From contig JAMCUL010000012.1 in the NCBI GenBank assembly GCA_023381355.1, forward strand, positions 21,389-85,388: 64,000 nt of DNA. The letters run 5' to 3'. A program made the translations under genes and the position numbers. Shown in pieces: positions 4,917 through 64,000 of the stretch (the stretch's first letter is position 1; each line of letters begins with the position of its first letter). The stretch comes from Thermoplasmatota archaeon. GTDB taxonomy: Archaea; Thermoplasmatota; Thermoplasmata; Thermoplasmatales; Thermoplasmataceae. The notes under the pieces were generated by a model. That model made no database searches and was not told where the DNA came from. It saw nothing but the letters and a program-made list of their open reading frames with translations.

Positions 4917-4919
4917 AGG

Positions 4920-6154: not shown

Positions 6155-6678
6155 GAATAACTGTTAGCGGCCATATTGGAAGTGGCAAGTCTACAGTTTC
6201 AAATTTCCTTGGACAGCTTACCGGTTTCAAGGTATATTCAGGAGGCTTTTTTTTCAGGAAGCTTGCAGAAGATCGGGGAATGACCATAGAGGAATTCAAT
6301 AAGTTTGCTGAGAACGACGATACCATGGACTTCATTCTAAACAGGGAAATAGAGGTCTTCCTGAGGGATAATGATAATATAATCGTGGAGTCAAGGCTCA
6401 GCGGCTGGATTGCTCACTCGTCTGGAATAGATGCATTCAAGGTATTTCTTGACGCACCCCTTGATGAGAGAATCCGGCGGGTAGGAATCCGGGAAACATC
6501 TCCTGATATCAGAAACAGGGTTATATCAAGGGAAGAGTCGGAGGATCTCCGTTTCAGGAACTACTTCAATTTTGATATGGATGATAAAAGCATATATGAT
6601 GCAGTAATAGATACCACAGAAGGTGGAGCAGATTATGTTGCAAAAAAAATCTACAGTATCATCTTTCCCCATGGGTGA
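6151..6678 (+). CDS. cmk: Cytidylate kinase
   Basis: MRITVSGHIGSGKSTVSNFLGQLTGFKVYSGG. Confidence 0.92.
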   Translation: MRITVSGHIGSGKSTVSNFLGQLTGFKVYSGGFFFRKLAEDRGMTIEEFNKFAENDDTMDFILNREIEVFLRDNDNIIVESRLSGWIAHSSGIDAFKVFLDAPLDERIRRVGIRETSPDIRNRVISREESEDLRFRNYFNFDMDDKSIYDAVIDTTEGGADYVAKKIYSIIFPHG

Positions 6679-7720
6679 GGAAGGCTGTTTCCTGTGCATA
6701 GACAAACCAAAGGGACCTACGAGCCATCAGGTGGATCACTGGGTCAGGGAAATAACCGGAGTTGAGAAGGTTGGCCACGTGGGAACCCTTGATCCACAGG
6801 CGACAGGGCTGCTCGTGATGGCCATGGGGAAGGCTGTCAGGCTGGTTGAGATAGCCCATGAGCAACCGAAGGAATACATTGCCTCAATGAAGCTCCACAG
6901 CCAGGTTGACGAGAAGAGCATAAGGGATGTCTTCAATATTTTCACCGGAACAATCTATCAGCTCCCTCCACTTAAGAGCGCCGTGGTAAGAAGGATTCGT
7001 CCTAAGAAGATCTATGAACTTGAAATTATGGAGATCGATGACAGGGATATTCTTTTCAGGGTAAAGTGCGAATCAGGAACATATGTGAGGACACTCTGCC
7101 TTGACATCGGCTATATACTTGGAACAAGGGCTAACATGACAGATCTCAGAAGGACCAGCACCCTTCCTTTTACAGAGAAGGACTGCATTACCCTCCAGCA
7201 GCTGAGTGATTACATGATTCTTGCGCAAAAGGGGAACGACAAGCTTCTGAGGGCAGCCATATATTCTCCCTCTTTCCTCTTCTCCCCATATCCAAAGGTG
7301 GTTGTGAAGGATTCAGCAGTTGGAACAATCTCACACGGTTCGGATCTCTATCCGGGCGGGCTCAAGGCTATAATAGGAAACCCACTGGAAGGTGACAGGG
7401 TTGGTGTTTTCTCGGAAGGGGGAAAGCTTGTTGGCACTGGAAAGATGCTAATTTCATATAACCAGATCATGGAGACCAAGATTGTGGATTTTGACAGGGT
7501 ACTTGTAGATCCAGGACCGGCAAAGCACATGAAAACTGAGCCAGAGAAGGTAAAGCCTGAAGTCCGGACATATGGTGACAGGGGCAGCAGGCCGAGGAAG
7601 AATGATGCATACAGCAGGCAACCTGACAGAAATCATCATGGATCGTCGCATGAGAAGCGCAACTTCAGTGGAAATGAGCGTGCAAGAAGGCCAGAACAGA
7701 GGGAAAGAAGGAGGCGCTGA
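6671..7720 (+). CDS. cbf5: tRNA/rRNA pseudouridine synthase Cbf5/TruB with PUA domain and basic C-terminal tail
   Basis: DKPKGPTSHQVDHWVREI, VGHVGTLDPQATGLLVM; PUA segment YPKVVVKDSAVGTISHGSDLYPGGL. Confidence 0.95.
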   Translation: MGEEGCFLCIDKPKGPTSHQVDHWVREITGVEKVGHVGTLDPQATGLLVMAMGKAVRLVEIAHEQPKEYIASMKLHSQVDEKSIRDVFNIFTGTIYQLPPLKSAVVRRIRPKKIYELEIMEIDDRDILFRVKCESGTYVRTLCLDIGYILGTRANMTDLRRTSTLPFTEKDCITLQQLSDYMILAQKGNDKLLRAAIYSPSFLFSPYPKVVVKDSAVGTISHGSDLYPGGLKAIIGNPLEGDRVGVFSEGGKLVGTGKMLISYNQIMETKIVDFDRVLVDPGPAKHMKTEPEKVKPEVRTYGDRGSRPRKNDAYSRQPDRNHHGSSHEKRNFSGNERARRPEQRERRRR

Positions 7721-7724
7721 CCTG

Positions 7725-8516
7725 ATGCATGAATACAGGAAATGGTATGGAAAGAATGTGAATGGCGAGTTTGCCTGGTATGCTGGCCTTGAGGATGATC
7801 CTCAGGCGGTTTTTGAAAAACTATCTGGGGGCATGGATGTACAGACCGTAAGGGAGAAACCTGGAAGCATGCCTGACCTGAGGGAGGCAATGATCGGGTA
7901 TGGAAAGACCTGCCTCAAAAACTCCCTGGGGGAAGACTGGAAACTTGTGAAACTGATTAACGTGTACTTCTCAATGGACGAACTAATCAATACGCTTTAT
8001 GAAAAGTCCCTTTCCCTTTCGCTTATTACCGGGGAGCATAACGGGAAGGAGCAGTTTTTCCGTGATCTTGCTGGCAGCGGGAATGAGGGAATGAAGACGA
8101 TCGGGAACCTCGGTAATGAGATGATCCTGCGCAGGGAGGAACTGTGGGGTGACATCCAGAGGAAGATGGAGGCAATACTCCCCGGTTCATGCCGGCTCGC
8201 GGGCACATTAACTGTGGCAGAGCTCCTTGCCCATTTTGGGAACATGGAGAGGCTTGCAATGAGCCGATCATCATCAATACAGATGGCCGGAGCTGAAAAA
8301 TCACTTTTTATAAGCAAGATGAAGGGCGTGAAAAATCCAAAATATGGACTCATATATAAGTGCCCTGTTGTTTCATCTGCTCCTGCACCGAAGAGGGGAA
8401 AGGTCGCAAGGAAACTCGCAGGAAAACTTACAATCTGCATCAGGGCAGATTTTTCAGGGAATCCCATTCAGGAAGACCAGATAGATAGAATGAAGGAGAA
8501 GGTAACTCAGGCCTGA
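7725..8516 (+). CDS. Divergent, short Nop5/Nop56-58 family protein (C/D box sRNP scaffold-like)
   Basis: C-terminal Nop-domain-like segment LAHFGNMERLAMSRSSSIQMAGAEKSLFISKMKGVKNPKYGLIYKCPVVSSAPAPKRGKVARKLAGKLTICIRADF. Confidence 0.75.
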   Translation: MHEYRKWYGKNVNGEFAWYAGLEDDPQAVFEKLSGGMDVQTVREKPGSMPDLREAMIGYGKTCLKNSLGEDWKLVKLINVYFSMDELINTLYEKSLSLSLITGEHNGKEQFFRDLAGSGNEGMKTIGNLGNEMILRREELWGDIQRKMEAILPGSCRLAGTLTVAELLAHFGNMERLAMSRSSSIQMAGAEKSLFISKMKGVKNPKYGLIYKCPVVSSAPAPKRGKVARKLAGKLTICIRADFSGNPIQEDQIDRMKEKVTQA

Positions 8517-9949
8517 TCAAGTGTTGCCTGCCTTACCTCAAGCTCGCCTTCAACTTTTATGGGATATCTTGCAGTAAGGCATCCCAGGCATAGCTCACGT
8601 TCGGTCATCCCTATGCCTTTCATGAGTCCATTCATTGAAAGATATGCAACGGAATCAGCCCCTATGATCTGCGCCACCTCCTCCATTGACTTATTCAATG
8701 CAATGAACTGATCCCTCGTCTTCATGTCTATTCCAAAGTAGCATGGAGAGATTATGGGGGGAGCGCCTATCCTGACATGAACTTCAGTGGCACCCGCATT
8801 CCTTAGAATCCCAACTATACGTTTCATTGTAGTACCGCGAACGATACTGTCATCCACAAGGACAATCCTCTTGCCTTCAACAACACTCTTAATCGGGTTC
8901 AGTTTTATCTTGATTGCCGTATCCCTGTTGTTTTCGCCGGGCATTATGAAAGTTCTCTCCGAATACCTGTTCTTGAATAATCCCTCACTGTACTCAATGC
9001 CCGACTGCAGTGCATATCCAAGGGCCTGTGTTCTCCCAGAATCCGGAACAGGGATGACAATGTCGGCCGTGACGGGGAATTCCTTTGCAAGTTCCATCCC
9101 CATCTTCAGTCTTGCATCATATACCTCCTGCTTGTCAATAATGCTGTCCGGTCTTGCGAAGTAAACCCATTCAAACATGCAGTGGGAAAGCCTTGGAGAT
9201 GGGTTCTTTATGAGGCTCGTGTAGGTTCCGTCCATAAACTCTATGACCTCACCTGGATCCACATCCCTTATTATCGTGCCACCAAGTACATCAATCGCGG
9301 AGCTTTCTGAGGCAACAATATAATCATTCCCCACTTTACCAAGTATGAGTGGCCTGAATCCCATCGGGTCCCTGAGGGCATACATTTTCCCCTGTACGAG
9401 GAGGATGGCAGAATAAGATCCCTTGAGGATATCCATTGAACTCCTGAGACCTGCCCTCGTTCCCTTCAGTTTCATCTCCCTTGCAATAATGTTGAGCATT
9501 ACTTCCGTATCCGTTTTTGTGAGAAATGGAACTCCCTTCTCCTTCAATTCCTCGCGTAACGCATTGTGGTTAACAATTTCGCCATTATGTGCAAGCGCCA
9601 TGTCACCATTCGAGGTCGATATCAAAAATGGGCCCGCTCCTGTAAGGTTTTTCTGTCCCGCAGTGGAATATCTGTTATGACCTATTCCTGTATTTCCCTG
9701 AGGAACCTGACCACTCTCAATATACGGCCTGAAACCCTCAAAAACATAACCATCCACCTTGAGTAAATTCACCCTTCTTCCATCAAAAATTGCAACTCCA
9801 GAGGCCTCCTGGCCACGGTGTTGAAGCGTTCTCAGTGAAACGTAGAGCTTATCAAAAGCTCCACTTGTGCCATAGTAACCAACTACGGCACAGTTCTCAC
9901 TTGGTTTTAGCCCAGTTATAGGATCGAAGTTTTGGGGCTGGGAAGCCAC
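8507..9949 (-). CDS. purF: Amidophosphoribosyltransferase (PurF); GTG start proposed at 9949
   Basis: CAVVGYYGTSGAFDKLYVSLRTLQHRGQEASGVA; PRTase motif VLVDDSIVRGTT. Confidence 0.95.
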   Translation of the reverse strand: MASQPQNFDPITGLKPSENCAVVGYYGTSGAFDKLYVSLRTLQHRGQEASGVAIFDGRRVNLLKVDGYVFEGFRPYIESGQVPQGNTGIGHNRYSTAGQKNLTGAGPFLISTSNGDMALAHNGEIVNHNALREELKEKGVPFLTKTDTEVMLNIIAREMKLKGTRAGLRSSMDILKGSYSAILLVQGKMYALRDPMGFRPLILGKVGNDYIVASESSAIDVLGGTIIRDVDPGEVIEFMDGTYTSLIKNPSPRLSHCMFEWVYFARPDSIIDKQEVYDARLKMGMELAKEFPVTADIVIPVPDSGRTQALGYALQSGIEYSEGLFKNRYSERTFIMPGENNRDTAIKIKLNPIKSVVEGKRIVLVDDSIVRGTTMKRIVGILRNAGATEVHVRIGAPPIISPCYFGIDMKTRDQFIALNKSMEEVAQIIGADSVAYLSMNGLMKGIGMTERELCLGCLTARYPIKVEGELEVRQATLDQA

Positions 9950-10061
9950 AGTGAGCGCACCTCTTTTCTCTTACGTGGTAAGAGTGATGTCCACATCTTC
10001 TGCATCTGATGTGAACCTTCTTGTTGTTCATCTTTCCCATTACTGCTGTTCCATTACTCAT
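9897..10061 (-). CDS. rpl37e: Ribosomal protein L37e (54 aa, not in the supplied ORF track)
   Basis: Reverse strand reads MSNGTAVMGKMNNKKVHIRCRRCGHHSYHVREKRCAHCGFPAPKLRSYNWAKTK*; two CxxC zinc-ribbon pairs. Confidence 0.93.
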   Translation of the reverse strand: MSNGTAVMGKMNNKKVHIRCRRCGHHSYHVREKRCAHCGFPAPKLRSYNWAKTK

Positions 10062-10312
10062 TGGTCATCACCTTTTGATGGGGACACATATATCACGTTG
10101 TCCCCTCTTACAAGTATCCTGTTATGGAAACTCTTGGCCTCACCGTTTATTATCTCGCTGGCGTTTCTCAGAACGAGATTCATGTATACGTCATTACCTT
10201 CTAGGATACCTGAATATCCTCTGTTTCCCTTGACGTCAACAAGAACGTTCTTTTCTGCTGAGTTTCTTAAAACGTCCAGCGGTTTATTTCCTGTATCTGG
10301 ATTTTTTGGCAT
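10058..10312 (-). CDS. Sm-like (LSm/SmAP) protein
   Basis: MPKNPDTGNKPLDVLRNSAEKNVLVDVKGNRGYSGILEGNDVYMNLVLRNASE...ILVRGDNVIYVSP, Sm1 and Sm2 motifs; conserved LSm-L37e adjacency. Confidence 0.93.
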   Translation of the reverse strand: MPKNPDTGNKPLDVLRNSAEKNVLVDVKGNRGYSGILEGNDVYMNLVLRNASEIINGEAKSFHNRILVRGDNVIYVSPSKGDDQ

Positions 10313-11232
10313 ACTGATTATAGGCTTATAGAACTGGCATATAAAAAAATATCTAAAGAAATACGAATTCAGGATAATGTTGAAATGCAGGGCCAAAAAC
10401 ATTTAGTCCGGCAGGGTCGAAGGAATGCACTTCAGTCAGGGTGTTGATGCAAATTTCTCTATTTTTTGCAATTATATACTGGAAAACATCCTTTGTTATA
10501 AGCGGGAAAATTCATTTTTAGCCGATCTACATTCGGAGTCACCAGATAAATAAGGGCTGTTCCTTGCTGTTAATCCTGGCAATCATTCATACCTTCATGA
10601 CTCAGGTATTTGCTGAAACATCAATCTTTTCAAGTTATATTTGCCTCAATTTCGGTAACAGAATGCATGACGCAAGTGGGCAATTACATAAACGCTCAGC
10701 CCGGGCATATGGGATAAATCACTTCAAAAAGCATCATTCCAGAAGATTCATATTGAGGAAGATACAGTAGGAGGGGAAGAAATTAAATATCGCTTTTAAT
10801 GTGCCGCATGAAATATGGGTTGAATGAGAAATGGATTACTGTTAGTCCCATCTGCCTTAATTATGTATTATCTTAAAGTGGTTTCAAGGGAAATCCAGAA
10901 TGAAGCCATATCCTCGGCCGGTCAAATTTGGGTCCATGGCAGTAAGCCACCTGGCAGAATCACAGTAATTATAAGGCTAAACGATATCAAAGTTACCAAA
11001 AAAAGACATGAAAAAATCACACAATGAGATGTCAATTACACTGATATTTTCATCTCAGATTGAATGAATTTCACTAATAGAGGGATTTAGATTCTCGAGT
11101 TGGAGAGCATAAATGAAGGTGCAGGCAACCCAGAAGGAAAAATGATTCATTTCTGAATAAATACTTATATGGATAATGAATACTGGTAAAATCAACACTC
11201 AAGTTTGATATTTAAGGGTGAATGTAGTGAAA

Positions 11233-11511
11233 ATGCCAAAGAATATGAAGATGTACTGCAAATACTGCAAGGAGCACACAAACCACGAGGTAGAGAGGGT
11301 AAGAAAGAGGAAGGCGAGTGAACTCAGGGCAGGTCAGAGGAGATTCAGGAGAGTAACCTCAGGTTTCGGAGGTTTTCCAAGACCCAGATTCGAGGGAAGG
11401 GAAAAGCCAACCAAGAGAGTCAGCATCAGGTACAGGTGCCTGAAGTGCAAGAGGGCTACGACAAGTCCAACCCAGAGGGCAAAGAAATTCGAGATTGTTG
11501 AGGTGAGATAA
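11233..11511 (+). CDS. rpl44e: Ribosomal protein L44e
   Basis: MPKNMKMYCKYCKEHTNHEVERVRKRKASELRAGQRRF, C-terminal CLKC. Confidence 0.94.
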   Translation: MPKNMKMYCKYCKEHTNHEVERVRKRKASELRAGQRRFRRVTSGFGGFPRPRFEGREKPTKRVSIRYRCLKCKRATTSPTQRAKKFEIVEVR

Positions 11512-11708
11512 TGGCAGAGAAGGAAATGAAGAAACTCAAGGGAAAGCAAAACAGGTTCATCAAGATAAAGTGTCCTGAGTGTGGAAATGAGCAGATTACA
11601 TTCACAAGGGCCTCAAGCAACGTGACTTGTCATATTTGCGGGGCTGAAATAGTTAAACCAACCGGTGGCCTGATTAAAACATCAGGTGAGATTGTAGAAG
11701 AATACTGA
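11511..11708 (+). CDS. rps27e: Ribosomal protein S27e
   Basis: FIKIKCPECGNEQITFTRASSNVTCHICGAEIVKPTGG zinc ribbon. Confidence 0.94.
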   Translation: MAEKEMKKLKGKQNRFIKIKCPECGNEQITFTRASSNVTCHICGAEIVKPTGGLIKTSGEIVEEY

Positions 11709-12484
11709 TGAATATGGAAACTGAGATACCTGAGGAAGGTGACCTTGTTGTCGTCACCATTTTGAAGGTCGACAAATTTAGTGCAGACGTAAGGCTGGAT
11801 GAATATCCCGGGGTGAATGGGTATATTCACATATCAGAGGTTGCCAGCGGATGGGTCAAGTTCATTCGTGATCATCTGAGAGAGGGCCAGAAGACTGTTT
11901 GCAAGGTTCTTCAGGTTGATCCTAAGAGGCGGGTTGTTGAATTATCGCTGAAGAGGGTAAATGAGCACCAGAAGAGAGACAAGATTTCTCAATGGAAAAA
12001 TGACCAGAAAGCCGATAAGCTTATGGAGATAGTTGCCCAGAATTTGAAGAAGAAGACGGAGCAGTGCATGGAGGAATTTGGCAACGATCTCATTCAGAAA
12101 TATGGCTCTCTATACGAAGCATTCGAGGAGGCATCAAGTGAGGGAGACGAATTCATGAAAGGTACGAGAGCAAAGTGGAGAACCGCTTTCATAAAGGTTG
12201 CAGAACAGAATGTTGCCTCTCCTTTTGTGAAGATTGGAGGAAAGATGGAAATGTATTCCCTTGCATCTGATGGCATAGATAAAGTCAAGGCATGCCTTGC
12301 GGCTGGCCAGAGAGAAGGGGTTCAGATCCAGTATGCAGGTGCTCCCAGATATCTCATAAAAGTAAAAAGCCGTGAATTCAAGGAAGCAGAAGATATCCTA
12401 AAAAATTCTATCCAGAATATGCAGGAAAGTTCCAAGAAGCTGGGTGTATCTTTTGAGTTTGAAAGGGAAAGTAAGGAAAAATGA
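11708..12484 (+). CDS. eif2a: Translation initiation factor aIF2 alpha
   Basis: S1 domain YPGVNGYIHISEVASGWVKFIRDHLREGQKTVCKVLQVD. Confidence 0.95.
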   Translation: MNMETEIPEEGDLVVVTILKVDKFSADVRLDEYPGVNGYIHISEVASGWVKFIRDHLREGQKTVCKVLQVDPKRRVVELSLKRVNEHQKRDKISQWKNDQKADKLMEIVAQNLKKKTEQCMEEFGNDLIQKYGSLYEAFEEASSEGDEFMKGTRAKWRTAFIKVAEQNVASPFVKIGGKMEMYSLASDGIDKVKACLAAGQREGVQIQYAGAPRYLIKVKSREFKEAEDILKNSIQNMQESSKKLGVSFEFERESKEK

Positions 12485-12639
12485 AGGGAGTTATCAGGAA
12501 ATGTCCGGTCTGTGGATTATACACACTGAAGGATGAATGTCCTAAATGCCAGAAAAGCACTGTTGTGGCAGGCCCACCTAAGTATTCTACTTCTGACAGG
12601 TTCCAGAAATACAGGCTAGAAGAACTGGAGAAGATTTAA
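12481..12639 (+). CDS. nop10: H/ACA RNP protein Nop10 (52 aa, not in ORF track)
   Basis: MKGVIRKCPVCGLYTLKDECPKCQKSTVVAGPPKYSTSDRFQKYRLEELEKI*; downstream of aIF2 alpha as in other archaea. Confidence 0.93.
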   Translation: MKGVIRKCPVCGLYTLKDECPKCQKSTVVAGPPKYSTSDRFQKYRLEELEKI

Positions 12640-12640
12640 A

Positions 12641-13402
12641 ATGGATAGAATAGTAATTAAAAAAATAGAAGAAAATATAACGTTCGAAAGTCCACCGGTA
12701 TTGGTATGTGGGCTTCCCGGAATAGGAAACGTGGCAAGGCTTGCCGTGGACTACATTGTAGAGAAACTGAAGATGTCCAAGATATATGATATCTACTCCA
12801 CACATCTTCCCGCACAGGTTTTCGTTAATTCAAACGGAACAGCATTTCTTCCAAAGAACAGCGTATATATGAAGAACATCTCCAAGAAGAAGAGCATGAT
12901 CATCTTTACCGGAGACTTCCAGGGAAATACGCCAGAAGGCCAGTATGAAATTGGAGAAACAATCCTCAACATCGCCAGGGAAAACGGCGTCAAGACCGTT
13001 TACACACTTGGAGGATATGGGATAGGTAAGCTTGTAGAGAATCCAAGGATCCTTGGTGCGGTTACAAACCTGAAGATCAGGAAGAAGCTTGAATCCGCAG
13101 GCGTCATATTCTCAGAGAATGAGCCAGGTGGTGGAATCATAGGGTCTGCTGGTGTAATTATGGGACTTGCCGGCGAGTTCTATGGCATGGATGCTGCCTG
13201 CATAATGGGTGAGACCTCAGGATATTTTACGGATCCCAAGGCCGCTCTTGCGATTATCCGGACTCTTTCAACCCTGGTTGGTTTCAGGATCAATCTCAAG
13301 GAGATGGAAGAAAGGAGCAAGAATATCGAGCAGCTAACGGAGAAGATGCAGGGTGAGATGCAGGAACGCAGCCAGAAGGATGATCTCGGATATTTCGTCT
13401 AG
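12641..13402 (+). CDS. PAC2 family / proteasome-assembly-chaperone-like protein
   Basis: PPVLVCGLPGIGNVARLAVDYIVEKL; conserved downstream of nop10. Confidence 0.85.
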   Translation: MDRIVIKKIEENITFESPPVLVCGLPGIGNVARLAVDYIVEKLKMSKIYDIYSTHLPAQVFVNSNGTAFLPKNSVYMKNISKKKSMIIFTGDFQGNTPEGQYEIGETILNIARENGVKTVYTLGGYGIGKLVENPRILGAVTNLKIRKKLESAGVIFSENEPGGGIIGSAGVIMGLAGEFYGMDAACIMGETSGYFTDPKAALAIIRTLSTLVGFRINLKEMEERSKNIEQLTEKMQGEMQERSQKDDLGYFV

Positions 13403-13764
13403 ACGTATAATATCGTGATAATCCAAATAAAATCAATTTCAGTTCATCCTGTAATATTTGATTATGAATTTGCGGGGGAAGGGATGAATTTTATCCGAAA
13501 TGGGAATCAATGTTATCTCTGAATGATATTGCGGAAACTATCCCATTTGTAAACATATAATTGTTCCCAATCTTCTTGGCCACTACATTTTTTAAATCCT
13601 CCTTTACCAGTATTCCCCTTGTCCATTCCTCCATATATTACAAAATCGGTCATAGCGACATATTGACATTGCCTCCAAGAATGCATTAGAAATATATTGT
13701 GTGAATAACTGTTCCCCAAAAAAAACAAGTGAATAGGGGTTATAAAATCTAAATCACGGTTCCT

Positions 13765-16137
13765 CTATATATGGTAATGCTTGAAGACGACCCCTTTAAA
13801 CCTGTCAAGGAGTATCATCCAGACAAGGGATATTACGAGCACCGCAATTATGTATATTAGAGGCACAGGTGTAACGAGTATGCCCTGCGAGGTGATTATT
13901 GTGATCACTATGATATCCAGGATTGATGCTGTAAGGAGGTATTTTGAGGGCCGTGACTTCCAGAATGCCCTCCTTTCCCTTACCATATATACAGTAAACT
14001 GACCTGAAAACACCAGCATGGCGAATATGTATGTTTGTATTTCAGGATGAGTCAGGCCGAACCTGAATCCTGTCCAGAGCACAAAGAAGCTTTCAACGAC
14101 TATAAGAAGTGCCAGCGAAACAGAGGATCCCACAAGCGACCTCACATTCCACTGCTCCGGACTCTTTGAGAAGCCCACATTATCTGTGGATATTGACATT
14201 GTGACAAAATCGTTGGCAAATAGGAGAAGGATGATGTCAAAAGGAGTCGTTACAAAGAATCCAACTATGAAGAATGAAATTGTAAGGAATATTGCCACCT
14301 GAACGGTCTTTATTATCTTGTTCAGGGTGTATGTGAGCATCCTCTGAAATATCTTCCTTCCATCCTCAACAGCAGAAACAATATCCTCAAGCCCCTCATG
14401 TGTAAGCACGATGCTTGCCGAAGCTTTTGCAACGTCCGTTGCATTAGAAACGGCAATTCCAACCTCCGCCTGCTTGAGTGCAGGAGCGTCATTAACACCG
14501 TCTCCGGTCATTCCAGTTATGTGTTTTTCATTCTGGAGTTCCTTCACAATATTGTACTTGTCTTCAGGATATACCTCTGCAACCACGTCACAGTCATCGA
14601 TCTTCTCCTTGCCACTTCTTATATCGCCGATTGCACAGCTGCTCTGTCCAATACCGACTTCCCTCCCTATCTCGCTTCCAATTGCTGATGAATCTCCTGT
14701 TATCATTCTGGGTCGAATGCCCATAGCCTTGAGTTGTGCTATGAATCTTGAAGAATCCTTTCTTGGCGGGTCATAAAGCGGGATAAGCCCAAGGAAAGTC
14801 CTCTCCTTCTCCCCAATCTTTGCAACACCAAGAGTCCTGAACCCTTTCTCCGCAAAATTCTTCACCCTGTCAAGTATCTCCCCCTTGTTTTCAACTTCGC
14901 ACAGTCCTACAATTATCTGGGGTGCGCCCTTCATAACAAGAAATTCTCCATTATCTGTCTCAATCTTTGCCTCGGTCCTCTTGATTGCAGGATCAAATGG
15001 AACAAATTCCTTCCTCGTAACATTTGGAATGCTGTATCCCTGCCTCTTCGTGTAATCTATGACCGCCATATCAATTGCATCCATTGTGGATATGTCGGAT
15101 GCAATCATTGCATAGTACATGAGTTCATTCTCGGTTGAATTATAAACAACGGGGTCGCTTACGGAGAGCCTGTTTTCGGTGATTGTTCCGGTCTTATCAA
15201 GACAGAGGGTGTCCATGGAGGCTGCATCCTCAACCGCCGTCAGTTTTGTAACAAGAACGCCCTTCCTTGACAGATCAAGGGCCCCGATTGCCATTGCCAT
15301 TGTAAATGTGGCAGGGAGTGCAACCGGGACAGACGCAATAAGTACAACAAGCGAGAATGGTATGACATCCGTGAGGCTAACATGTATGTATAATGAATAT
15401 GACAGGAGAATTGCAATCAGTACAAAATCCATGACAACGAGATATTTTACAATGTCAAGGATCAGGGCTTCAAGATGTGACTTAGCTCCTGCAAGATTCA
15501 CAAGCTGTGCTGTCTTTCCAAAGATAGTTGAAGACCCTGTTGCAATAACGACACCTGTTGATTCACCACGTTTAAGGACTGAACTTGAATAAAGTATACT
15601 TCCCTTTGTCTTTTTCACGGGAAGTGATTCCCCTGTAAGCATGGACTGGTCAGCCTGGGACTCGCCATCTATGACCTTAAGGTCCCCGGGTATTATGTCT
15701 CCCATCCTCACATGAACAATGTCTCCCGGCACAATTTTAGATGCGTCCATATTCTTCCATGTTCCATCCCTCAGGACTCTTGCAGTCACGCTTACCTTTT
15801 TCTTCAGGACGTCAATGGCATCCTGCGCCTTAAGTTCCTGGACATAGCTTACAATTGCATTGAATACAAGGAGGAACAGGATAACATACATGTCCAGGTA
15901 TTTCCCAAACATGTAAGTCAGAATAACAGTAAGCTCGAGCATCCAGGGAACAGGAGCCCAGAATTTCAGGGCGAATTTCAATACTGGATTTACCTTCTTT
16001 TCGGTTATGGCATTGAGTCCATACTTCCGGAGACGTTCAGCTGCTTCTGCCTCACTGATACCATTAGTGCTGGAATTAAGTCGCCTCAGGGCATGCTCAA
16101 CCGGTTCATTCTCTCGGCCACTTTCCATATTGACCAT
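13765..16137 (-). CDS. P-type (P3A, plasma-membrane type) H+-transporting ATPase
   Basis: DKTGTITEN phosphorylation motif, MLTGESLPV, TGDGVNDAPALKQAEVGIAV; start MVNMESG preferred. Confidence 0.93.
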   Translation of the reverse strand: MVNMESGRENEPVEHALRRLNSSTNGISEAEAAERLRKYGLNAITEKKVNPVLKFALKFWAPVPWMLELTVILTYMFGKYLDMYVILFLLVFNAIVSYVQELKAQDAIDVLKKKVSVTARVLRDGTWKNMDASKIVPGDIVHVRMGDIIPGDLKVIDGESQADQSMLTGESLPVKKTKGSILYSSSVLKRGESTGVVIATGSSTIFGKTAQLVNLAGAKSHLEALILDIVKYLVVMDFVLIAILLSYSLYIHVSLTDVIPFSLVVLIASVPVALPATFTMAMAIGALDLSRKGVLVTKLTAVEDAASMDTLCLDKTGTITENRLSVSDPVVYNSTENELMYYAMIASDISTMDAIDMAVIDYTKRQGYSIPNVTRKEFVPFDPAIKRTEAKIETDNGEFLVMKGAPQIIVGLCEVENKGEILDRVKNFAEKGFRTLGVAKIGEKERTFLGLIPLYDPPRKDSSRFIAQLKAMGIRPRMITGDSSAIGSEIGREVGIGQSSCAIGDIRSGKEKIDDCDVVAEVYPEDKYNIVKELQNEKHITGMTGDGVNDAPALKQAEVGIAVSNATDVAKASASIVLTHEGLEDIVSAVEDGRKIFQRMLTYTLNKIIKTVQVAIFLTISFFIVGFFVTTPFDIILLLFANDFVTMSISTDNVGFSKSPEQWNVRSLVGSSVSLALLIVVESFFVLWTGFRFGLTHPEIQTYIFAMLVFSGQFTVYMVRERRAFWKSRPSKYLLTASILDIIVITIITSQGILVTPVPLIYIIAVLVISLVWMILLDRFKGVVFKHYHI

Positions 16138-16273
16138 AAATACTTGATAGCATAAAAAAGGTAAGTGGATATCTGTGTCATGATTTCCCGCAGCATCAGT
16201 GAGCAGGTACATAGAGGGAGTTTTTTCAAGGATAAACTTTTATTGCAGCATTAAAATACGTTGAAGATCTGGA

Positions 16274-16738
16274 ATGAAATGGGTTACAAGAGAAAAGGCA
16301 AAGGTGGATAGAATCGCATGTCCCTGGCTGATCCATAGATTCGTGGATTCAGACGCGGAGTTTATATTTGTACCGGGGAAAATGGTGATGGAAGTTGCGA
16401 AGAATGAATCTGCCATCCCATTTGATATTGAAGGTGCAGAACTGATGCACTACATGGATAATGGTGAGGAGCGTGTAACCTTTGACGCAATCATAAGGAA
16501 GTACAGTCTGAAGGATGATGCGCTGCTTGAACTGGCCAGGATAGTAAGAGGTGCGGATGCCAGCATTCCTGATGCTCCCGTTGAATCTGCAGGCCTTGAG
16601 GCCGCAGCGCTTGGTTTCAGGAAAATCAGCAGAGATGACCATGAAAACATGAAGTTGCAATTTCCACTGTATGACGCACTTTATCAGTATGTCAGAAACA
16701 GGCTTGAACAGGGGACACATCTTGAGCATTCAAGATGA
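16274..16738 (+). CDS. ChrB C-terminal-domain (chromate resistance-like) protein
   Basis: MKWVTREKAKVDRIACPWLIHRFVDSDAEFIFVP...ELMHYMDNGEERVTFDAI. Confidence 0.8.
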   Translation: MKWVTREKAKVDRIACPWLIHRFVDSDAEFIFVPGKMVMEVAKNESAIPFDIEGAELMHYMDNGEERVTFDAIIRKYSLKDDALLELARIVRGADASIPDAPVESAGLEAAALGFRKISRDDHENMKLQFPLYDALYQYVRNRLEQGTHLEHSR

Positions 16739-16975
16739 TCAATCTTCAAATCGAAATTACTGGTGATGGCATATCTTCTGAGGTATATTCATTCATGTAA
16801 ACAAGGGGTGAATTGTATTTATGCCTGCATATTGTTTCCGGGAGGAGATGCTTACGGTTTTCGCATCACGATTGAACATTCGCATGCATGATCTGCCAGT
16901 GATATGGATGCCCCGAATCACTGAAATAGCATAAAGGTACTGGAAAACACTTTAAAGTCGAATACATGTTGGATT

Positions 16976-18820
16976 ATGGCAGTCAAGCCTAAAAAAGATG
17001 AATACAAACAGGTCTCTGTCTCGGAATTCTTCGAGAAAAACCGGCATATTCTCGGTTTTGATTCAGCCCAGAAATCCCTCTTCATGATAGTGAAGGAAGC
17101 AGTTGACAATTCCCTGGATGCCTGCGAGGAGCGGGGAATACTGCCTGAAATTTCAGTGAGGATCGAGAGAAAGCCAAACGACATATTCAGGATCACTGTT
17201 GAGGATAATGGACCTGGAATTGAGAGGACGATAGTTCCCAGGGTATTCGGGCAGCTGCTATATGGATCAAGATTCCACGTGCTCAGGCAGACAAGGGGAC
17301 AGCAGGGCCTGGGAATCACTGCATCGATACTTTACGGCCAGAGCACATCCGGTGAGCCGTGTGAGATAATAACCAAGAGGGCGCAGGATGAGGTTGCCTT
17401 CCATTTCATCCTCGGCATAGATGTCAGGACCAACACAGCAGATCTCAAGGTCGAGGAACCGGTAATATGGGACAGGGAATCCGGAACTTCAATAGCAATC
17501 ACTGCAAAGGGAAGGTATGTAACTGGAAAGCAGTCCATCATGGAATACCTGAAGGAGGTTGCGGTTGTCAATCCAAACGCAAGAATTCATTTTACTGATC
17601 CTGACGGGAAGAGCCTTGTTTTCGAGAGGTCCATAGAAGAGCCAGCAAAGCCGTCAAAGGCAACAAAGCCGCATCCATACGGAATAGAGCTTGGGGAGCT
17701 TTTATCACTTTCACAGATAACAGAGAGCACAACGTTATTGAAGATGCTTTCTTCAGAATTTTCCAGGCTGAGTGATAATTCAGCCTCTGAAATTCTTGCC
17801 AAGGCAGGCATAGATCCTGAAATGAATCCAAGAGACCTGGCAAAGGACGGGGCAAACGCAATAATGGAAGCAATTGCAAATACGAAGCTCATGCCACCAA
17901 CTGCTGAATCACTTTCACCCATCTCGGAGCAGTTCATAAGGCTTGGAATGCTTTCTGTTTATGGGGAGGAAAGGCCCTCATTCTTCGGCAAACCCGTCTC
18001 TGGAAAGGTAAGGATATATAAGGGAAATCCTTTTTCAGTGGAGGTAGGAATGGTTTATGGTGGTGATCTCCCGTCAGAACAGCCTGTAAGGATCGTGAGA
18101 TACGCAAACAAGGTTCCGCTGCTGTTCCAGCCCGGGTCGTGTGCCATCACACAGGCAGTCTCTGACATAGACTGGCGACAGCTAGGCTTTGATCAGAAGC
18201 AGGGAAAAGGCGTCCCGTACGGGCCTGCAATCATCCTCGTTCATGTACACGGGCCAAGGATCCCATACATATCAGAATCCAAGGAGGCTATTGCCCCAAT
18301 TGAGGAAATAATGGACGAGATCAGGAATGTGATAAGGATTGAGGTCAGGCAGCTCAGAAAATTCAACAGCAGGGCTGAAAGGAACAAGAAGATAGGGGAG
18401 AAGTTCAACCTAGTCAGCGTGGTTGTTCCCGAGATAGCTAAGAAGAGTGCTGAAATTCTTTCAATGGAGATTCCTGATTGCAAGATGGTCATAAGCAGGA
18501 TAGCCAACGTTGTCTTTGTCAGGGAAGACATAGCAGGGGAGAATGGAAGGAAGACTTCAAGGACATCTGTGGTGAATTACACAATGGAGAACATATCAAT
18601 GAACCTGAAGATTGTATATCCTTTTGGAGAAAAGGATCTTGAGATAAGGGATCTCCCTCCATCTGAATCATTTACTTACGACCAGGATCTGGATAAAATT
18701 GCAGGCGGATATTCGGGTGCTGAGTTTTACTTTACGGGAATCAATCCTGTATATGTGCAGGGAGCTGAGGAATTGCCAGCAGATTGGGGACTGAAGGGGG
18801 TTGAGACAGTTGAGGAATAG
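16976..18820 (+). CDS. top6B: DNA topoisomerase VI subunit B
   Basis: GHKL motifs EAVDNSLDACEERG, VEDNGPGIE, RGQQGLGITAS. Confidence 0.96.
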   Translation: MAVKPKKDEYKQVSVSEFFEKNRHILGFDSAQKSLFMIVKEAVDNSLDACEERGILPEISVRIERKPNDIFRITVEDNGPGIERTIVPRVFGQLLYGSRFHVLRQTRGQQGLGITASILYGQSTSGEPCEIITKRAQDEVAFHFILGIDVRTNTADLKVEEPVIWDRESGTSIAITAKGRYVTGKQSIMEYLKEVAVVNPNARIHFTDPDGKSLVFERSIEEPAKPSKATKPHPYGIELGELLSLSQITESTTLLKMLSSEFSRLSDNSASEILAKAGIDPEMNPRDLAKDGANAIMEAIANTKLMPPTAESLSPISEQFIRLGMLSVYGEERPSFFGKPVSGKVRIYKGNPFSVEVGMVYGGDLPSEQPVRIVRYANKVPLLFQPGSCAITQAVSDIDWRQLGFDQKQGKGVPYGPAIILVHVHGPRIPYISESKEAIAPIEEIMDEIRNVIRIEVRQLRKFNSRAERNKKIGEKFNLVSVVVPEIAKKSAEILSMEIPDCKMVISRIANVVFVREDIAGENGRKTSRTSVVNYTMENISMNLKIVYPFGEKDLEIRDLPPSESFTYDQDLDKIAGGYSGAEFYFTGINPVYVQGAEELPADWGLKGVETVEE

Positions 18821-19892
18821 TGAGAATACAGAGGATTCTCTTAAGGAATTTGTAAGACTTATATATGAGGCAATAAGAAGCGGAGAGATACCTGAGGTGA
18901 GGCTGAAATCAAGGACAAGGGAGAATATAGTTCTCGACAGTCTTCTTGGCGTATGGAAATATGGTGACCAGGAGGTTGTGAGATCTGCAAGAAAGATGGA
19001 CGGGGCACAGTTCATGGCAAAGTCCCTCTACACGATTCAGTTCATACTTGAGATGTTGAAGGATTCTAAATCATCAACTCTGAGGGAGATGTATTATATA
19101 TCTGAGGGCTGGAAGGATTATAAATTTTCAGCACAGGACGAATCGAATCTCCTGGTTGAGGACATGGAAGTCATCACAGAACTGCTCAGGGAGGATTTTC
19201 ATCTCAGGCCAGAAGAGAATGGGGCAAGCATAATCGGGAACATAACCATTGAGGAAAAGAACAGGAAGAACGAATTCAAGAGGATAAATTGCAGGGATGA
19301 TGTCGGTGATGCAGGTTATACAATACCATATAATGTGGAATCTGAAAAGCTCCGGCTGATTTCACACGATGCCGACATGATAGTTGCACTGGAAACGGGA
19401 GGTATGTTTGACAGGCTTGTTGAGAACAAGTTCGACGAGGATTTCCGGGCAGTTCTCGTACATCTGAAAGGCCAGCCTGCGAGAAGCACGAGAAGGCTCC
19501 TGAAAAGGATGAATGAGGAGATGGGACTCCCGGTCTACATCTTCACGGATGGTGATCCATGGTCTTTCAGGATATACGCCTCGATTGCCTACGGTGCTAT
19601 CAAGACTGCTCACATCTCCCACTGGCTTGCGGTTCCCACTGCGGAATTTGTGGGAATAACTGCAAGTGACATACTGACCTATGACCTTCCAACAGACAAG
19701 CTGAATGACAAGGATGTAGGTGCCCTCAATGCAGAACTCCAGGATCCAAGGTTCAATACGGAATTCTGGAAATCGGAGATAGAAACAATGCTAAAGATAA
19801 ATCAGAAGGCTGAGCAGCAGGCACTTGCTAAATACGGTCTTAACTTTGTAACCGAAACATACCTTCCCGAGAAGTTGAACCTTAAATCATAG
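18801..19892 (+). CDS. top6A: DNA topoisomerase VI subunit A (Spo11-like)
   Basis: REMYYISEGWKD catalytic Tyr region; Toprim VYIFTDGDPWSFRIYASIAYG. Confidence 0.96.
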   Translation: MRQLRNSENTEDSLKEFVRLIYEAIRSGEIPEVRLKSRTRENIVLDSLLGVWKYGDQEVVRSARKMDGAQFMAKSLYTIQFILEMLKDSKSSTLREMYYISEGWKDYKFSAQDESNLLVEDMEVITELLREDFHLRPEENGASIIGNITIEEKNRKNEFKRINCRDDVGDAGYTIPYNVESEKLRLISHDADMIVALETGGMFDRLVENKFDEDFRAVLVHLKGQPARSTRRLLKRMNEEMGLPVYIFTDGDPWSFRIYASIAYGAIKTAHISHWLAVPTAEFVGITASDILTYDLPTDKLNDKDVGALNAELQDPRFNTEFWKSEIETMLKINQKAEQQALAKYGLNFVTETYLPEKLNLKS

Positions 19893-19901
19893 GTGGTCGT
19901 G

Positions 19902-20708
19902 ATGGATACTACAATGAAACTGAAAATAATCCAGTGGAAGTCAACTGGAGATGTAAGCAGAAACCTTGAATTCATTCTCGACAGGATCGGCAAGACGGGG
20001 AAGGATTCACTTGTAATATTCCCTGAATACTCGATGATATACCCTGATTATAAAGACACACAGTCATTCATCGAAAAGTCTCAGGGAATTGGGGATTTTT
20101 TCATACATTCCATACAGGATTCTGCAAGGAAGAACTCTGTGGAGGTCATGATAAACTTTGCAGAGAAAAGCTATGGAAAACCATTCAACACTTCACTGCA
20201 CATTAACAGCAGCGGAATGATCTCTGCAAGGTATTCAAAGACACACCTGTTCGATTCATACGGTTTCCAGGAGTCTTCCCTGTACCGGAGAGGGATGAAT
20301 ATTCCCGATCCTTTCCAGGTATCCGGACGATTCCTTGCAGGTGTTGAAATATGCTACGACATAAGATTTCCGGAGATAAGCAGGATGTATTCGTTGAAAG
20401 GTGCTTCTATCCTCATTGTCCAGGCAGGTTTTTACAGGGGGGAGATGAAATATGACACATGGATGACCATGCTCCGTGCAAGGGCCATGGAAAACGGGAT
20501 GTTCGTCCTTGCTGCAAACCAGTGTGGACCGGACTTCCTTGGCCATTCAACAGTTATAGATCCATACGGAAGGATTCTGGCAGAGGTGAGCGAGGAACCC
20601 ATGGATCTCGAGGCGTCAGTTGATCTCTCCATTGTGGAAAAGTACAGGGAAGATGTGCCGGTGCTTAATCACAGAAGAAAGGATCTATATGAGGTTGGCG
20701 GCCTCTAG
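19902..20708 (+). CDS. Carbon-nitrogen hydrolase (nitrilase superfamily)
   Basis: IFPEYSMIYPD (E), KTHLFDSYGFQES (K), GVEICYDIRFPE (C). Confidence 0.9.
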   Translation: MDTTMKLKIIQWKSTGDVSRNLEFILDRIGKTGKDSLVIFPEYSMIYPDYKDTQSFIEKSQGIGDFFIHSIQDSARKNSVEVMINFAEKSYGKPFNTSLHINSSGMISARYSKTHLFDSYGFQESSLYRRGMNIPDPFQVSGRFLAGVEICYDIRFPEISRMYSLKGASILIVQAGFYRGEMKYDTWMTMLRARAMENGMFVLAANQCGPDFLGHSTVIDPYGRILAEVSEEPMDLEASVDLSIVEKYREDVPVLNHRRKDLYEVGGL

Positions 20709-59203: not shown

Positions 59204-60181
59204 TCACTTATCTTTGATCACCATAACTTTCGAATAACCAAGCAGAATAAGAATTACACAGATTATTATTGCTGCCATATCACTTGGAATAGTTCTGTTG
59301 AAACTTCCACCAATCAACATTATAATAAGGATAATTGAGCTAAATCCCCAAAGCGATTTCCTATTCAAGTTTGATATGGTGTCAAACTTGTTGAAATATC
59401 GGAAGAGATATACCAGTAGAAGAAGCAGTGCTAGAGTTTCCGGGACCAGGATAATAGGAATGCGGTTTCCGAAAGTGAATGGAAGAATCATCCCGGCAGC
59501 AAATAGTATCAACACACCATTGCCTAATTGGTCACTCAATCTTTCCAATCTTCTGAATCTTGAGGATAGAGAATTTTTCCATGCTGCAAGTATCAGTATA
59601 AGAAGCAGCAAAACGATAAGAATAACTGGAAGAATTCCAGGTACTCTTCCAGCTGAAATGGACGCAACCATCAGGAAGTAATAAATCACTATGGTTACGG
59701 GTATCATTACCATATAGTCCCTTCGTGAGAGAATTGGATTCTTTAATCTTTGAGGCCATACAACATTGAGGATGAACAGAGTGGTTATGACTGTGATCAC
59801 TGCATGAAGCATCATCACATATATGGTCCAAGTAAGATTAAAGCCAAAAGCGGTGAGCCACAATTTATGTGTACTGGTCTCCTCCATTGTAAATATAGAT
59901 ATTCCTTCTTCAAGAGTTCCATAAAAAAGTCCTAAAATGTAAATTGTACCCAGTTTTAGAGTGTATCTCACAGAGATGTCTGCAATCATTGTCACCTGAA
60001 ACCCATAAAATGCGAGACCGATAAGGAAAGATACAGGATATTGCAATATTCCCTCGACACTTGTGGAACCGGTCAATATTTCGGCTCCAAAGAAACTTAG
60101 ACCTGCGATTAGCAGAACGGTGGCAGATGAAGAATAATGTGTCGGCTGTTTACTCATGGACATACTATCTGTATCGCTCAA
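59204..60181 (-). CDS. Hypothetical polytopic membrane protein
   Basis: 325 aa, roughly nine hydrophobic segments; no family recognised. Confidence 0.65.
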   Translation of the reverse strand: MSDTDSMSMSKQPTHYSSSATVLLIAGLSFFGAEILTGSTSVEGILQYPVSFLIGLAFYGFQVTMIADISVRYTLKLGTIYILGLFYGTLEEGISIFTMEETSTHKLWLTAFGFNLTWTIYVMMLHAVITVITTLFILNVVWPQRLKNPILSRRDYMVMIPVTIVIYYFLMVASISAGRVPGILPVILIVLLLLILILAAWKNSLSSRFRRLERLSDQLGNGVLILFAAGMILPFTFGNRIPIILVPETLALLLLLVYLFRYFNKFDTISNLNRKSLWGFSSIILIIMLIGGSFNRTIPSDMAAIIICVILILLGYSKVMVIKDK

Positions 60182-60550: not shown

Positions 60551-63367
60551 CTAATTCAGCAATCTTATCATACTAGCAACTTGTTTTTCATTTTGCTGGA
60601 TAGGTATAAAACTCACAGACTTCCCTACAAGATCTTGGATATCATTCTGGTTGATATATTCTGAAAACGAGTTTGGAAAGAATATAAATCCTTTTCCACT
60701 TGCTTCAATCACTCCAAATTTTCTTTCTTGCTTATAATATTTAATTAGACCTAACAACTCAAGGTCATTTTTAATCGTTTCATCAACTTCTAAGAGTTCT
60801 TTCTCCAAATTCTTGAACTTGTTCAAAAATTTTGAATTCGTTTGACAATAAGTATATCCTCTTCTTATAAGACCTTTAATGCTGCTTTTAGAAATTTGTC
60901 CAGCTTTTCCATAGAAAGCAACACTATAGTAAGTTGCTTCACACATTGTTTTTTCACTAGGCTGTAATGTAATATTACCAATAATCAATGGCTTCATTGC
61001 CATTTCAAAATATTCATTTCCCTCTTTTAAATTACCTGATTTGGAATAAGCTATTCCTAAATCAATTAGTATGGCAGCACGAAGTTTCGATAATTTTAAA
61101 TCACTAGGAGAAAGTTGCATGCCATCTAGAACGGTTTCTAAACCTCTATTTAGATTTTGGATTTCTCCTGTTACGTCTTTTCTATCTCGACATGCCTGAC
61201 TCTTTCTTCTAAAATTCTCTCCTAAAAATTGAAGAGTCATTACTTTATGGCGAATGTTTGGATATTTCTGTTCGGTCAATGCTTGTCTGAATTCAATTTC
61301 TGCTTTGTCGTACTCTCCGGTAATTGAGTAAACTCTTCCTAATTCATTATAAATTGGAAGATACTGAGGGTTTAACTCTTTAGCTTTCTGAAGAATCATT
61401 ACTGCTTCTTCGTGTCTCCTGGCAATGCTTAGCATCTTTCCGTATGAAAAGAAGACAAGAAAATTTTCCTGATCAAATTCGATAGCTTGTTTCATTTTGT
61501 CCAATGCCTGATGATGGAAACCCCTATAAAATTCGAATTTAGCGTATTCAGTAAGTGCATATGCAAAATGTGGAGATGCCTTAATAGCCTCTTTAAAGTA
61601 ATTCTCTGCTTCTTTAAATTCACCTTTAAGCTGGTAATTTTTTGCAGATTTTACGTTCAAGAACGCAATCCTGTCGCTCTCTGTTTTCACTCCAAATGAA
61701 ATGAGCGATTGCGCGTACCCACTTTTTGCTAATTCCTCTCCCTTGATTTGATCAATGAGGTGGTACTTATTATTTTGTAGTTGCATTAGTATCTTTTCTT
61801 CACTTTGAAGCTTTGTCTCCACGAATCCCATCGTTAAGTCAAGCATATAATAAACAGTTTCTGGTGAACCAGAATCTTCTACCACCTCGGATATTATTAG
61901 AGAACTCAAGTTAAGTTCCTTAATCGCATCATTAAGTTCATCGTCATCCAGCTTAGATATATTTGCAAGAATAGCCATTTTCATAGGTTTATTTTCGTAC
62001 ACAATCATACTGTACAAAACAATTTTTGAAGTGCTGGATAATAGCAAAAAGACATCGTTAAAGACAAAACTTGCAATGTCACTTGAACCTTCAAGAATTA
62101 CAGAAAATGCCTTATCAATATCTTTTCCCATGCACACCTGCCCTATAGACCACTTAATAAGCAAAGGATAGTTCTTAACTTTCCTACATAACTGCCTTAT
62201 AAAGTCTTCATTCATAGATACCAGATCAGGTTTATTTTTCTCTTTTGATATTGTCTTGAAAAGTTTTATTGCGTCTTTATCATTCATATTATTCAACTGG
62301 TAGCGACGCTCTATCTCTCCGAGTCCTTTTCTACTTGTCACAAGAACTTGACTTGGTCTTGGAATGTTTTTAATAAATTCTATTATAGCTTGATTTTTAT
62401 AGACTGTCTCTAAATTATCAACTACCAGAAGGACTCTATTTTTTTTAAATGCGTTGTAAATGAAGTTTCTATACGCATTAAAATCTACTTTGGCAGTATC
62501 TAAGGCTTCCTCCTGCTTTGCGTCTATGATACGAGAGATCTCTTTAGCGAATTGCATCTCACTTCTAATTCCAGTTTCCAATGGTAAAATTCCGGAATCA
62601 GTAAGCTTACTTTCTTTTGCACTAAACCACATAATTGCGGTGAACGGATTATCTGCAGCTAAAATAGTCTCGTGTGCAAGTTTTAGAGCAATTGCAGTTT
62701 TTCCCACTCCACCAGCACCTATTATTGTCAATATTCTATCTTCGTTTGAATAGATGAGCTTTTTAATATCTCTAATTTCCTTTTCTCTCCCGACAAATCC
62801 CCCATCTATATCGAAGTCCTCAAAGGGTAGGTTATTTGGGACGCTATATTCTTCATAGAAAGTTTGTGGTATATCTCCGGCGGATTTGTATTTCTCTAAC
62901 TCTATATACGTTACTATTTCTTTTGAGGCTGGTCCCTGAGAAACTATTAATATTTTTTCAATCAAACTTTGTAAATTTTCATAAGTGAAAGAAAGTTTTG
63001 CATGAGCTATTTTTCTTCTTAAAATATTAAGATCGTTCATAGTTAAATCAAATTTTTCTTTTTCTATATTTTGTCCAATAAACTCTTTAGAGTAGGAAAA
63101 AAAACTCCCATTTAATACTATGTTCTTTAAGTGAATAAGCGTAAGTTCGTCAAAATATTCTTCTATACTAACGTCATCCCTTAGTTCGGAAATCCGATCC
63201 AAATCTTCAGGTCCAAACATAGACTTAGGCACATGTTCTTTCCAAGATTTGCCGAAATTCAAAAGGAAGACTTCGTTAGCTAAAAAGAGACGAAACTCTT
63301 GTTCAAAGTTATTTATTAGGATATCGTACCCCCATTTCCTGTATAATTTAGTTTGATTATAAGTCAA
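60551..63367 (-). CDS. Predicted HEPN/Swt1-like - STAND NTPase (NB-ARC-like) - TPR - cold-shock-like-domain protein
   Basis: N-terminal helical domain with LRRKIAH (R-x4-H); Walker A GAGGVGKT; Walker B RVLLVVDNLE; TSR sensor; TPR-like repeats; C-terminal FGVIEASGKGFIFFPNSF...DLVGKSVSFIPI. Confidence 0.82.
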   Translation of the reverse strand: MTYNQTKLYRKWGYDILINNFEQEFRLFLANEVFLLNFGKSWKEHVPKSMFGPEDLDRISELRDDVSIEEYFDELTLIHLKNIVLNGSFFSYSKEFIGQNIEKEKFDLTMNDLNILRRKIAHAKLSFTYENLQSLIEKILIVSQGPASKEIVTYIELEKYKSAGDIPQTFYEEYSVPNNLPFEDFDIDGGFVGREKEIRDIKKLIYSNEDRILTIIGAGGVGKTAIALKLAHETILAADNPFTAIMWFSAKESKLTDSGILPLETGIRSEMQFAKEISRIIDAKQEEALDTAKVDFNAYRNFIYNAFKKNRVLLVVDNLETVYKNQAIIEFIKNIPRPSQVLVTSRKGLGEIERRYQLNNMNDKDAIKLFKTISKEKNKPDLVSMNEDFIRQLCRKVKNYPLLIKWSIGQVCMGKDIDKAFSVILEGSSDIASFVFNDVFLLLSSTSKIVLYSMIVYENKPMKMAILANISKLDDDELNDAIKELNLSSLIISEVVEDSGSPETVYYMLDLTMGFVETKLQSEEKILMQLQNNKYHLIDQIKGEELAKSGYAQSLISFGVKTESDRIAFLNVKSAKNYQLKGEFKEAENYFKEAIKASPHFAYALTEYAKFEFYRGFHHQALDKMKQAIEFDQENFLVFFSYGKMLSIARRHEEAVMILQKAKELNPQYLPIYNELGRVYSITGEYDKAEIEFRQALTEQKYPNIRHKVMTLQFLGENFRRKSQACRDRKDVTGEIQNLNRGLETVLDGMQLSPSDLKLSKLRAAILIDLGIAYSKSGNLKEGNEYFEMAMKPLIIGNITLQPSEKTMCEATYYSVAFYGKAGQISKSSIKGLIRRGYTYCQTNSKFLNKFKNLEKELLEVDETIKNDLELLGLIKYYKQERKFGVIEASGKGFIFFPNSFSEYINQNDIQDLVGKSVSFIPIQQNEKQVASMIRLLN

Positions 63368-63635
63368 TAAAATCCACCTAATTATTTAAGTATGAACTGA
63401 AATTAATATAAGAGTTTTTCTAATAACCCTCAAGGAAACGCCATAACATTTATTCATGGAACTCGCATGTTAAAGCGTGAGTGACCTGCTTGATCATGCA
63501 TTGAAGGAGAAATACATTTCAATGAAGATAAATGATCCCTTAACATTTGTAAAGAATGCGATAGATTATTCAACAAGGACACGAGATGCTATTCTTATAT
63601 GTAGGCAAAAGTAGAATATCAAAAAGCACATATTG

Positions 63636-63880
63636 TTAGGGATATGAAGGAAGGACAAGAAGATCAAAGGATAGTTTATTCACGAAGAAGAACAACAAGA
63701 CACTCTTCCAATACAAGATATATACAATTGTTAATGACAACATTCCTGTCCCAGTTACTGCCCTTGATCTCATTGCGATCATCTTCCTCTCCGTCAGTGC
63801 ATCGATCCGATCGATGAATTCTGTGCCCTTTTTGAGCATTGTGTATATGATCTCTATGAGTATGCGGGCTATTGTGTAAA
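63636..63880 (-). pseudogene. C-terminal remnant of an IS110-family-like transposase
   Basis: Reverse strand reads YTIARILIEIIYTMLKKGTEFIDRIDALTERKMIAMRSRA, like the IS110 C-terminal end (ARxLxxxIyxMLkkgxxf); no 5' part present. Confidence 0.45.
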
Positions 63881-63952
63881 CGCCGGTTCATAATTGTGCA
63901 TTTTCGCCGGAATAAAAGTGACCCCTATCGCCGGTTTAATTTTGACCCCTGT
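63881..63952. repeat. Three tandem 24-bp units beginning cgccgg (IS21-type terminal repeats)
   Basis: cgccggttcataattgtgcatttt / cgccggaataaaagtgacccctat / cgccggtttaattttgacccctgt at exact 24-bp spacing. Confidence 0.75.
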
Positions 63953-64000
63953 CCATGCCATGACAGTGGTCTGAGTTGTACGGTCTGGAGGTGTGGAGAA
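63881..64000 (+). mobile_element. End of an IS21-like insertion sequence, continuing beyond the window
   Basis: Terminal multiple repeats followed by a possible IstA start (TTG 63976: LYGLEVWR...). Confidence 0.5.

Follow-up and report, generated by a model that had tools for sequence, protein, structure and literature searches.

The window, by which we mean the whole 64,000-nucleotide stretch that was analyzed, carries toward its right-hand end a single gene whose product combines a HEPN domain, a STAND NTPase, tetratricopeptide repeats (TPRs), and a cold-shock domain (Table 1). Translation begins at a TTG codon at position 63367. The start and stop of the 938-aa open reading frame are those given in a preliminary description of this DNA, and the motifs quoted there, namely LRRKIAH (with R117 and H122), GAGGVGKT (217-224), RVLLVVDNLE (311-320), and VLVTSRKG, are all found in it. 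The gene is AT-rich, as had been claimed, with a GC content of 33.7% versus 43.9% for the window, a value equally low in only 3 of 612 sliding windows. Scans for promoters and terminators gave results at about chance level.

Table 1. Features of the gene and its flank (window coordinates)
Feature	Position	Strand	Basis
Single gene for the HEPN(Swt1-type)-STAND(NB-ARC)-TPR-cold-shock protein	60551..63367	-	938-aa ORF and 13 homologs
HEPN domain, residues 1 to ~160	62888..63367	-	HEPN_Swt1 match in L066 and L062; R117/H122 invariance; AlphaFold2
NB-ARC STAND NTPase, residues ~189-456	62000..62803	-	Pfam NB-ARC
Recognizable TPRs, residues ~563-699	61270..61680	-	Pfam TPR_2 and TPR_12; TPR matches in PDB search
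C-terminal cold-shock (OB-fold) domain, residues 862-938	60554..60784	-	Pfam CSD; AlphaFold2 and Foldseek
Shine-Dalgarno-like TTAGGTGG, directly 5' of the TTG start	63368..63385	-	Sequence
End of IS21-family element	63875..64000	+	Repeat also present directly beside istA genes or remnants elsewhere in the genome

The gene adjoins a ribosomal protein operon, and an archaeal-type ribosomal protein/RpoD block lies at 54-57 kb of the window, which places the stretch in an archaeal genome. In two sister species, the DUF6159/ribosomal block continues into other genes and the segment with the gene is absent at that site. Also missing from the corresponding site in both species is the gene's immediate neighbor, an AT-rich, multi-pass membrane protein (59204-60181, minus strand) that has no Pfam match. 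On the opposite side, the contig (85,388 nt long) ends inside the IS21 end at window position 64000, leaving only the near flank visible. The IS21-end repeat was matched elsewhere in the genome at C1, C7, C14, and C20, and repeats at 63755-64000 recur where contigs C9 and C13 end and at several sites beside istA. Breaks in the assembly fall at IS21 copies, and many of these copies are degraded.

The N-terminal HEPN domain with an R-x4-H motif had been proposed from the sequence of this one protein. Searched alone, the HEPN region of the window protein matched no Pfam family, and a Pfam search of the whole protein returned neither a HEPN nor a cold-shock domain at threshold. Homologs supplied the assignment: HEPN_Swt1 was matched above the gathering threshold in L066 (5.8e-7) and at 0.0013 in L062. 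Furthermore, R117, I120, and H122 show no variation across the 14 aligned family members and are among just 13 invariant columns in the N-terminal 184 residues. Together, the Swt1 match and the invariance of R117 and H122 support the proposal. This family-wide conservation, which extends across homologs from both archaea and bacteria, rules out chance as the source of the motifs, R117/H122 included. The AlphaFold2 model of the domain is all-helical (pLDDT 88), with R117-x4-H122 closing a long helix at residues 103-122. A Foldseek search of this model against the PDB gave no significant match, and the first-ranked entry was the HEPN protein AbiF (E = 0.51, TM = 0.39, probability = 0.60; not significant).

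The motif reads R[RK][KN]IAH in the archaeal clade, RCKI[AS]H in the other clade, and RNxVMH in four distant relatives, where R-x4-H is thus kept in the canonical form RNxxxH. Because the residue following R117 is R, C, or K in place of the usual polar N or D, the catalytic competence of the HEPN domain is not certain. When HEPN profiles were compared, the archaeal and bacterial groups matched each other at 1E-24 and the bacterial group matched the distant relatives at 2.4E-07, while the comparison of archaeal with distant relatives was not significant.

Pfam NB-ARC matched the window protein at 1.4e-10 (residues 195-416), and ten residues of this module (G217, G219, G220, G222, K223, D317, N318, T344, S345, and R346) are invariant (n = 14), with Walker A and Walker B conserved in every family member, in agreement with the STAND NTPase claimed earlier. 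The TPR-like repeats were likewise recovered, with matches to TPR_2 (3.4e-13) and TPR_12 (4.9e-12) located after the NTPase, at about residues 577-698; helical repeats of a more divergent kind probably continue to about residue 850. For the claimed cold-shock/OB domain at the C terminus, structure modeling gave support. Although the isolated tail matched Pfam CSD below threshold (0.0025, and 0.00034 for the tail of L066), its AlphaFold2 model shows a barrel of five strands plus a short helix (mean pLDDT 83.7; the first ~20 modeled residues are weak and the barrel is mostly above 90). The best PDB match in Foldseek was CspA (1mjc; E = 7.2e-5, probability = 1.00, TM = 0.82 on the target); Bacillus Csp and YB-1 domains with RNA came next. 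Archaeal and bacterial tails are homologous at the profile level (hhalign E = 4.7e-11), and among distant relatives Pfam CSD was matched in L076 (4.3e-5) and in a Planococcus plasmid protein (1.1e-4). None of the PADLOC and NCBIfam models fits the protein beyond partial matches, one of which is to AfsR in NCBIfam. Membership in the Avs (AVAST) group was rejected, as no PADLOC Avs model matched and there were just weak partial matches to TPR and AAA.

To characterize the distribution of the family, we scanned GTDB with a three-member alignment, a pattern-based search that is not a census. It recovered 13 relatives at 27-58% identity. Archaeal relatives belong to Thermoplasmatota (n = 2), Methanobacteriota (n = 2), Bathyarchaeota, and Woesearchaeota, and bacterial ones to Bacillota, Bacteroidota (n = 4), Melainabacteria, and one unassigned metagenome-assembled genome. 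Homologs are rare and patchy, scattered over four phyla of archaea and three or more of bacteria, and the nearest sits in a genome of the Thermoplasmata. Relatives are about 927-944 aa long and share an identical layout, except for L070, an 845-aa open reading frame that ends before the tail. Because unrelated TPR proteins dominated a genome search with the full-length query, the search was repeated with residues 1-540. Full-length copies were present in 2 of 117 genomes of the order, the remaining matches there being TPR-only; one more strong match was found among 394 genomes drawn from the phylum (query residues 1-540). In the class of L074, 3 of 396 genomes had matches, two of them distant.

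The family has spread horizontally. Archaeal members group in a single well-supported clade of the tree with the exception of the Thermoplasmatota copy L068, which is nested within the bacterial clade, and this placement among bacteria indicates horizontal transfer. Plasmid-borne relatives lie farther out. The NB-ARC proteins WP_341963577.1 (Planococcus; L086) and WP_042119872.1 (Rhizobium etli; L087) likewise have a HEPN-like N terminus (motifs RNRVMH and RNSVMH, respectively), NB-ARC, TPRs, and a cold-shock-like tail, which in the Rhizobium protein was assigned from the alignment only. Their identity is about 25%, and they form a separate clade on long branches. Small Acinetobacter plasmids (NZ_CP007713.1 and related, 8-30 kb) encode an "ATP-binding protein" related over residues 112-492 (27%), which is possibly another HEPN-STAND protein.

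A distant viral relative was recovered by an alignment-based scan of viral contigs; a scan of viral contigs with the single protein gave no match, and no homolog was found in the annotated phage genomes that were searched. The viral contig (IMGVR_UViG_2788499875_000003 from IMG/VR) encodes an 856-aa protein (2479-5049, plus strand) assigned to PHROG 24039, of unknown function. Over the NTPase and the early TPRs, this protein shows 28% identity (E = 3e-36). It has AIPVRNATMHGRPL at the position of the HEPN motif and a tail that resembles the cold-shock segment by eye only, and Pfam confirmed neither the HEPN end nor the cold-shock end. The gene has a P22-like portal gene on one side and the gene for the major head protein on the other, a placement that suits a cargo gene for superinfection exclusion on this single contig.

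Comparison of 12 homolog neighborhoods revealed no conserved partner gene or operon neighbor, and the association with defense islands is partial. Recognized defense genes occurred in four of the neighborhoods (a raw count), and the other eight held only housekeeping or unannotated genes. L065, from the same genus as the window, lies in an island (3770-20428) with a HATPase, a DndC-like PAPS reductase (7.5e-48), SIR2, HerA, and an N6/N4 methylase, and has an IS21 element downstream. L068 neighbors a KAP NTPase (PDC-S49; 3.4e-146) and a trypsin-Sel1 protein, L071 neighbors AbiEi/AbiEii, and L067 neighbors AbiEii and a methylase/MspI remnant. In this remnant, just upstream of the homolog, a 153-aa open reading frame (L067:9272-9733) begins as a C5 cytosine methylase and finishes as an MspI-type restriction enzyme; it is apparently a scar left by deletion in a restriction-modification operon.

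We consider it likely that the protein is a one-component, NLR-like conflict switch, directed against viruses or mobile elements, that releases a HEPN RNase. At rest, NB-ARC with bound ADP would keep the N-terminal Swt1-type HEPN domains apart. The TPR superhelix, probably in concert with the cold-shock domain, would then detect an infection cue; the cue could be a viral protein on the TPRs, foreign or exposed single-stranded RNA or DNA on the cold-shock domain, or both. Nucleotide exchange would lead to oligomerization, so that HEPN domains meet as a dimeric RNase site built on R117 and H122, and cutting of tRNA, mRNA, or rRNA would shut the cell down in an abortive infection. Here we infer all four of the trigger, the oligomerization, the RNA target, and the antiviral outcome. 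A narrower version, which we regard as less probable, is that the cold-shock domain itself serves as the pattern-recognition element for viral single-stranded RNA or DNA and switches on the HEPN RNase via STAND. If true, the protein would parallel, in prokaryotes, the innate receptors that sense nucleic acids, and would be exchanged among archaea, bacteria, and phages.

Despite the defense neighbors at four loci, the protein could instead serve the host in regulation or stress response as an AfsR/MalT-like STAND protein, using its HEPN and cold-shock domains to bind host RNA and control expression without killing the cell. Cold-shock domains commonly act as RNA chaperones, NB-ARC-TPR combinations occur in regulators too (as in the partial match to AfsR), and several copies (L062, L063, L064, L066, L069, and L074) stand alone beside housekeeping genes. 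Against it, the family lacks conserved neighbors or an operon partner, is very patchy and transferred between domains, and keeps its predicted catalytic residues invariant, and the segment is missing from sister species. We regard this explanation as improbable. Similarly unlikely, in our judgment, is a selfish or toxin-type module whose main effect is to stabilize its carrier element or island, or to exclude rival elements and phages, and not to protect the host as such. IS21 sequences adjoin both the window copy and L065, AbiE-type toxin-antitoxin genes are found beside homologs, one relative lies within a block of phage morphogenesis genes, and others are on plasmids. Against this stands the absence of a conserved antitoxin partner gene, although a STAND switch could make such a partner unnecessary.

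This compact and constant single-gene family, common to archaea and bacteria and with a relative in a virus, is a tractable system for testing whether NLR-like proteins of prokaryotes sense nucleic acid directly, by means of an OB-fold tail, in addition to phage proteins. The architecture was predicted computationally in 2013. In the searchable literature, including few subscription papers, we found no experimental test of a HEPN-STAND-TPR-cold-shock system, whether for antiviral activity or for RNA sensing.

Among characterized systems, Avs and bNACHT NLR-like proteins work alike in that an N-terminal effector, a STAND switch, and C-terminal sensor repeats are combined (e.g., PMC9122126), but they carry effectors other than that of the HEPN-STAND-TPR-cold-shock protein. 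AbiF/Abi2 and Tha have the logic of a HEPN RNase in common with it, and AbiF was its top, albeit weak, fold match. For the HEPN protein Tha, a phage tail protein is described as the trigger (PMC11087260), and the parts of the literature consulted on AbiF/Abi2 and Tha report no STAND-TPR-cold-shock module. HEPN systems count among recently validated defenses (PMC13092281).

The closest counterparts are those of Anantharaman et al. (2013; PMC3710099), who grouped the Abi2 and Swt1 families together and listed Swt1-like HEPN domains with a STAND ATPase, TPRs, and S1 as "mostly active" (Npun_F6454, MED222_16016, and Desac_1927). Although the domain reading and the defense inference of the preliminary description were supported by the conservation, the structure models, the mobile and defense context, and the phage-borne relative, its candidate "undescribed" system was rejected, as this layout was described computationally in that study. 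Nor is the tail the least familiar part, as had been suggested: cold-shock-type OB-fold RNA-binding domains on HEPN-STAND proteins are noted in the same paper, making the nucleic-acid-binding C terminus the part already published, and a role in conflict is its reading of the Swt1-HEPN-STAND-TPR-S1 architecture. All four elements of the Swt1-HEPN-STAND-TPR-S1/CSD layout are present in the window protein, the HEPN domain by way of homologs. The 2013 proteins, a Bacillus cereus example among them, are like it in domain set, predicted active HEPN, and proposed conflict role, a likeness drawn from layout. They differ in that those named are bacterial, while the window protein belongs to a well-supported archaeal branch, and in carrying RNxxxH where that branch has R[RK][KN]IAH. 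Because the architecture was already published, the window protein represents a new subclade, mainly archaeal, within a known kind of predicted conflict protein.
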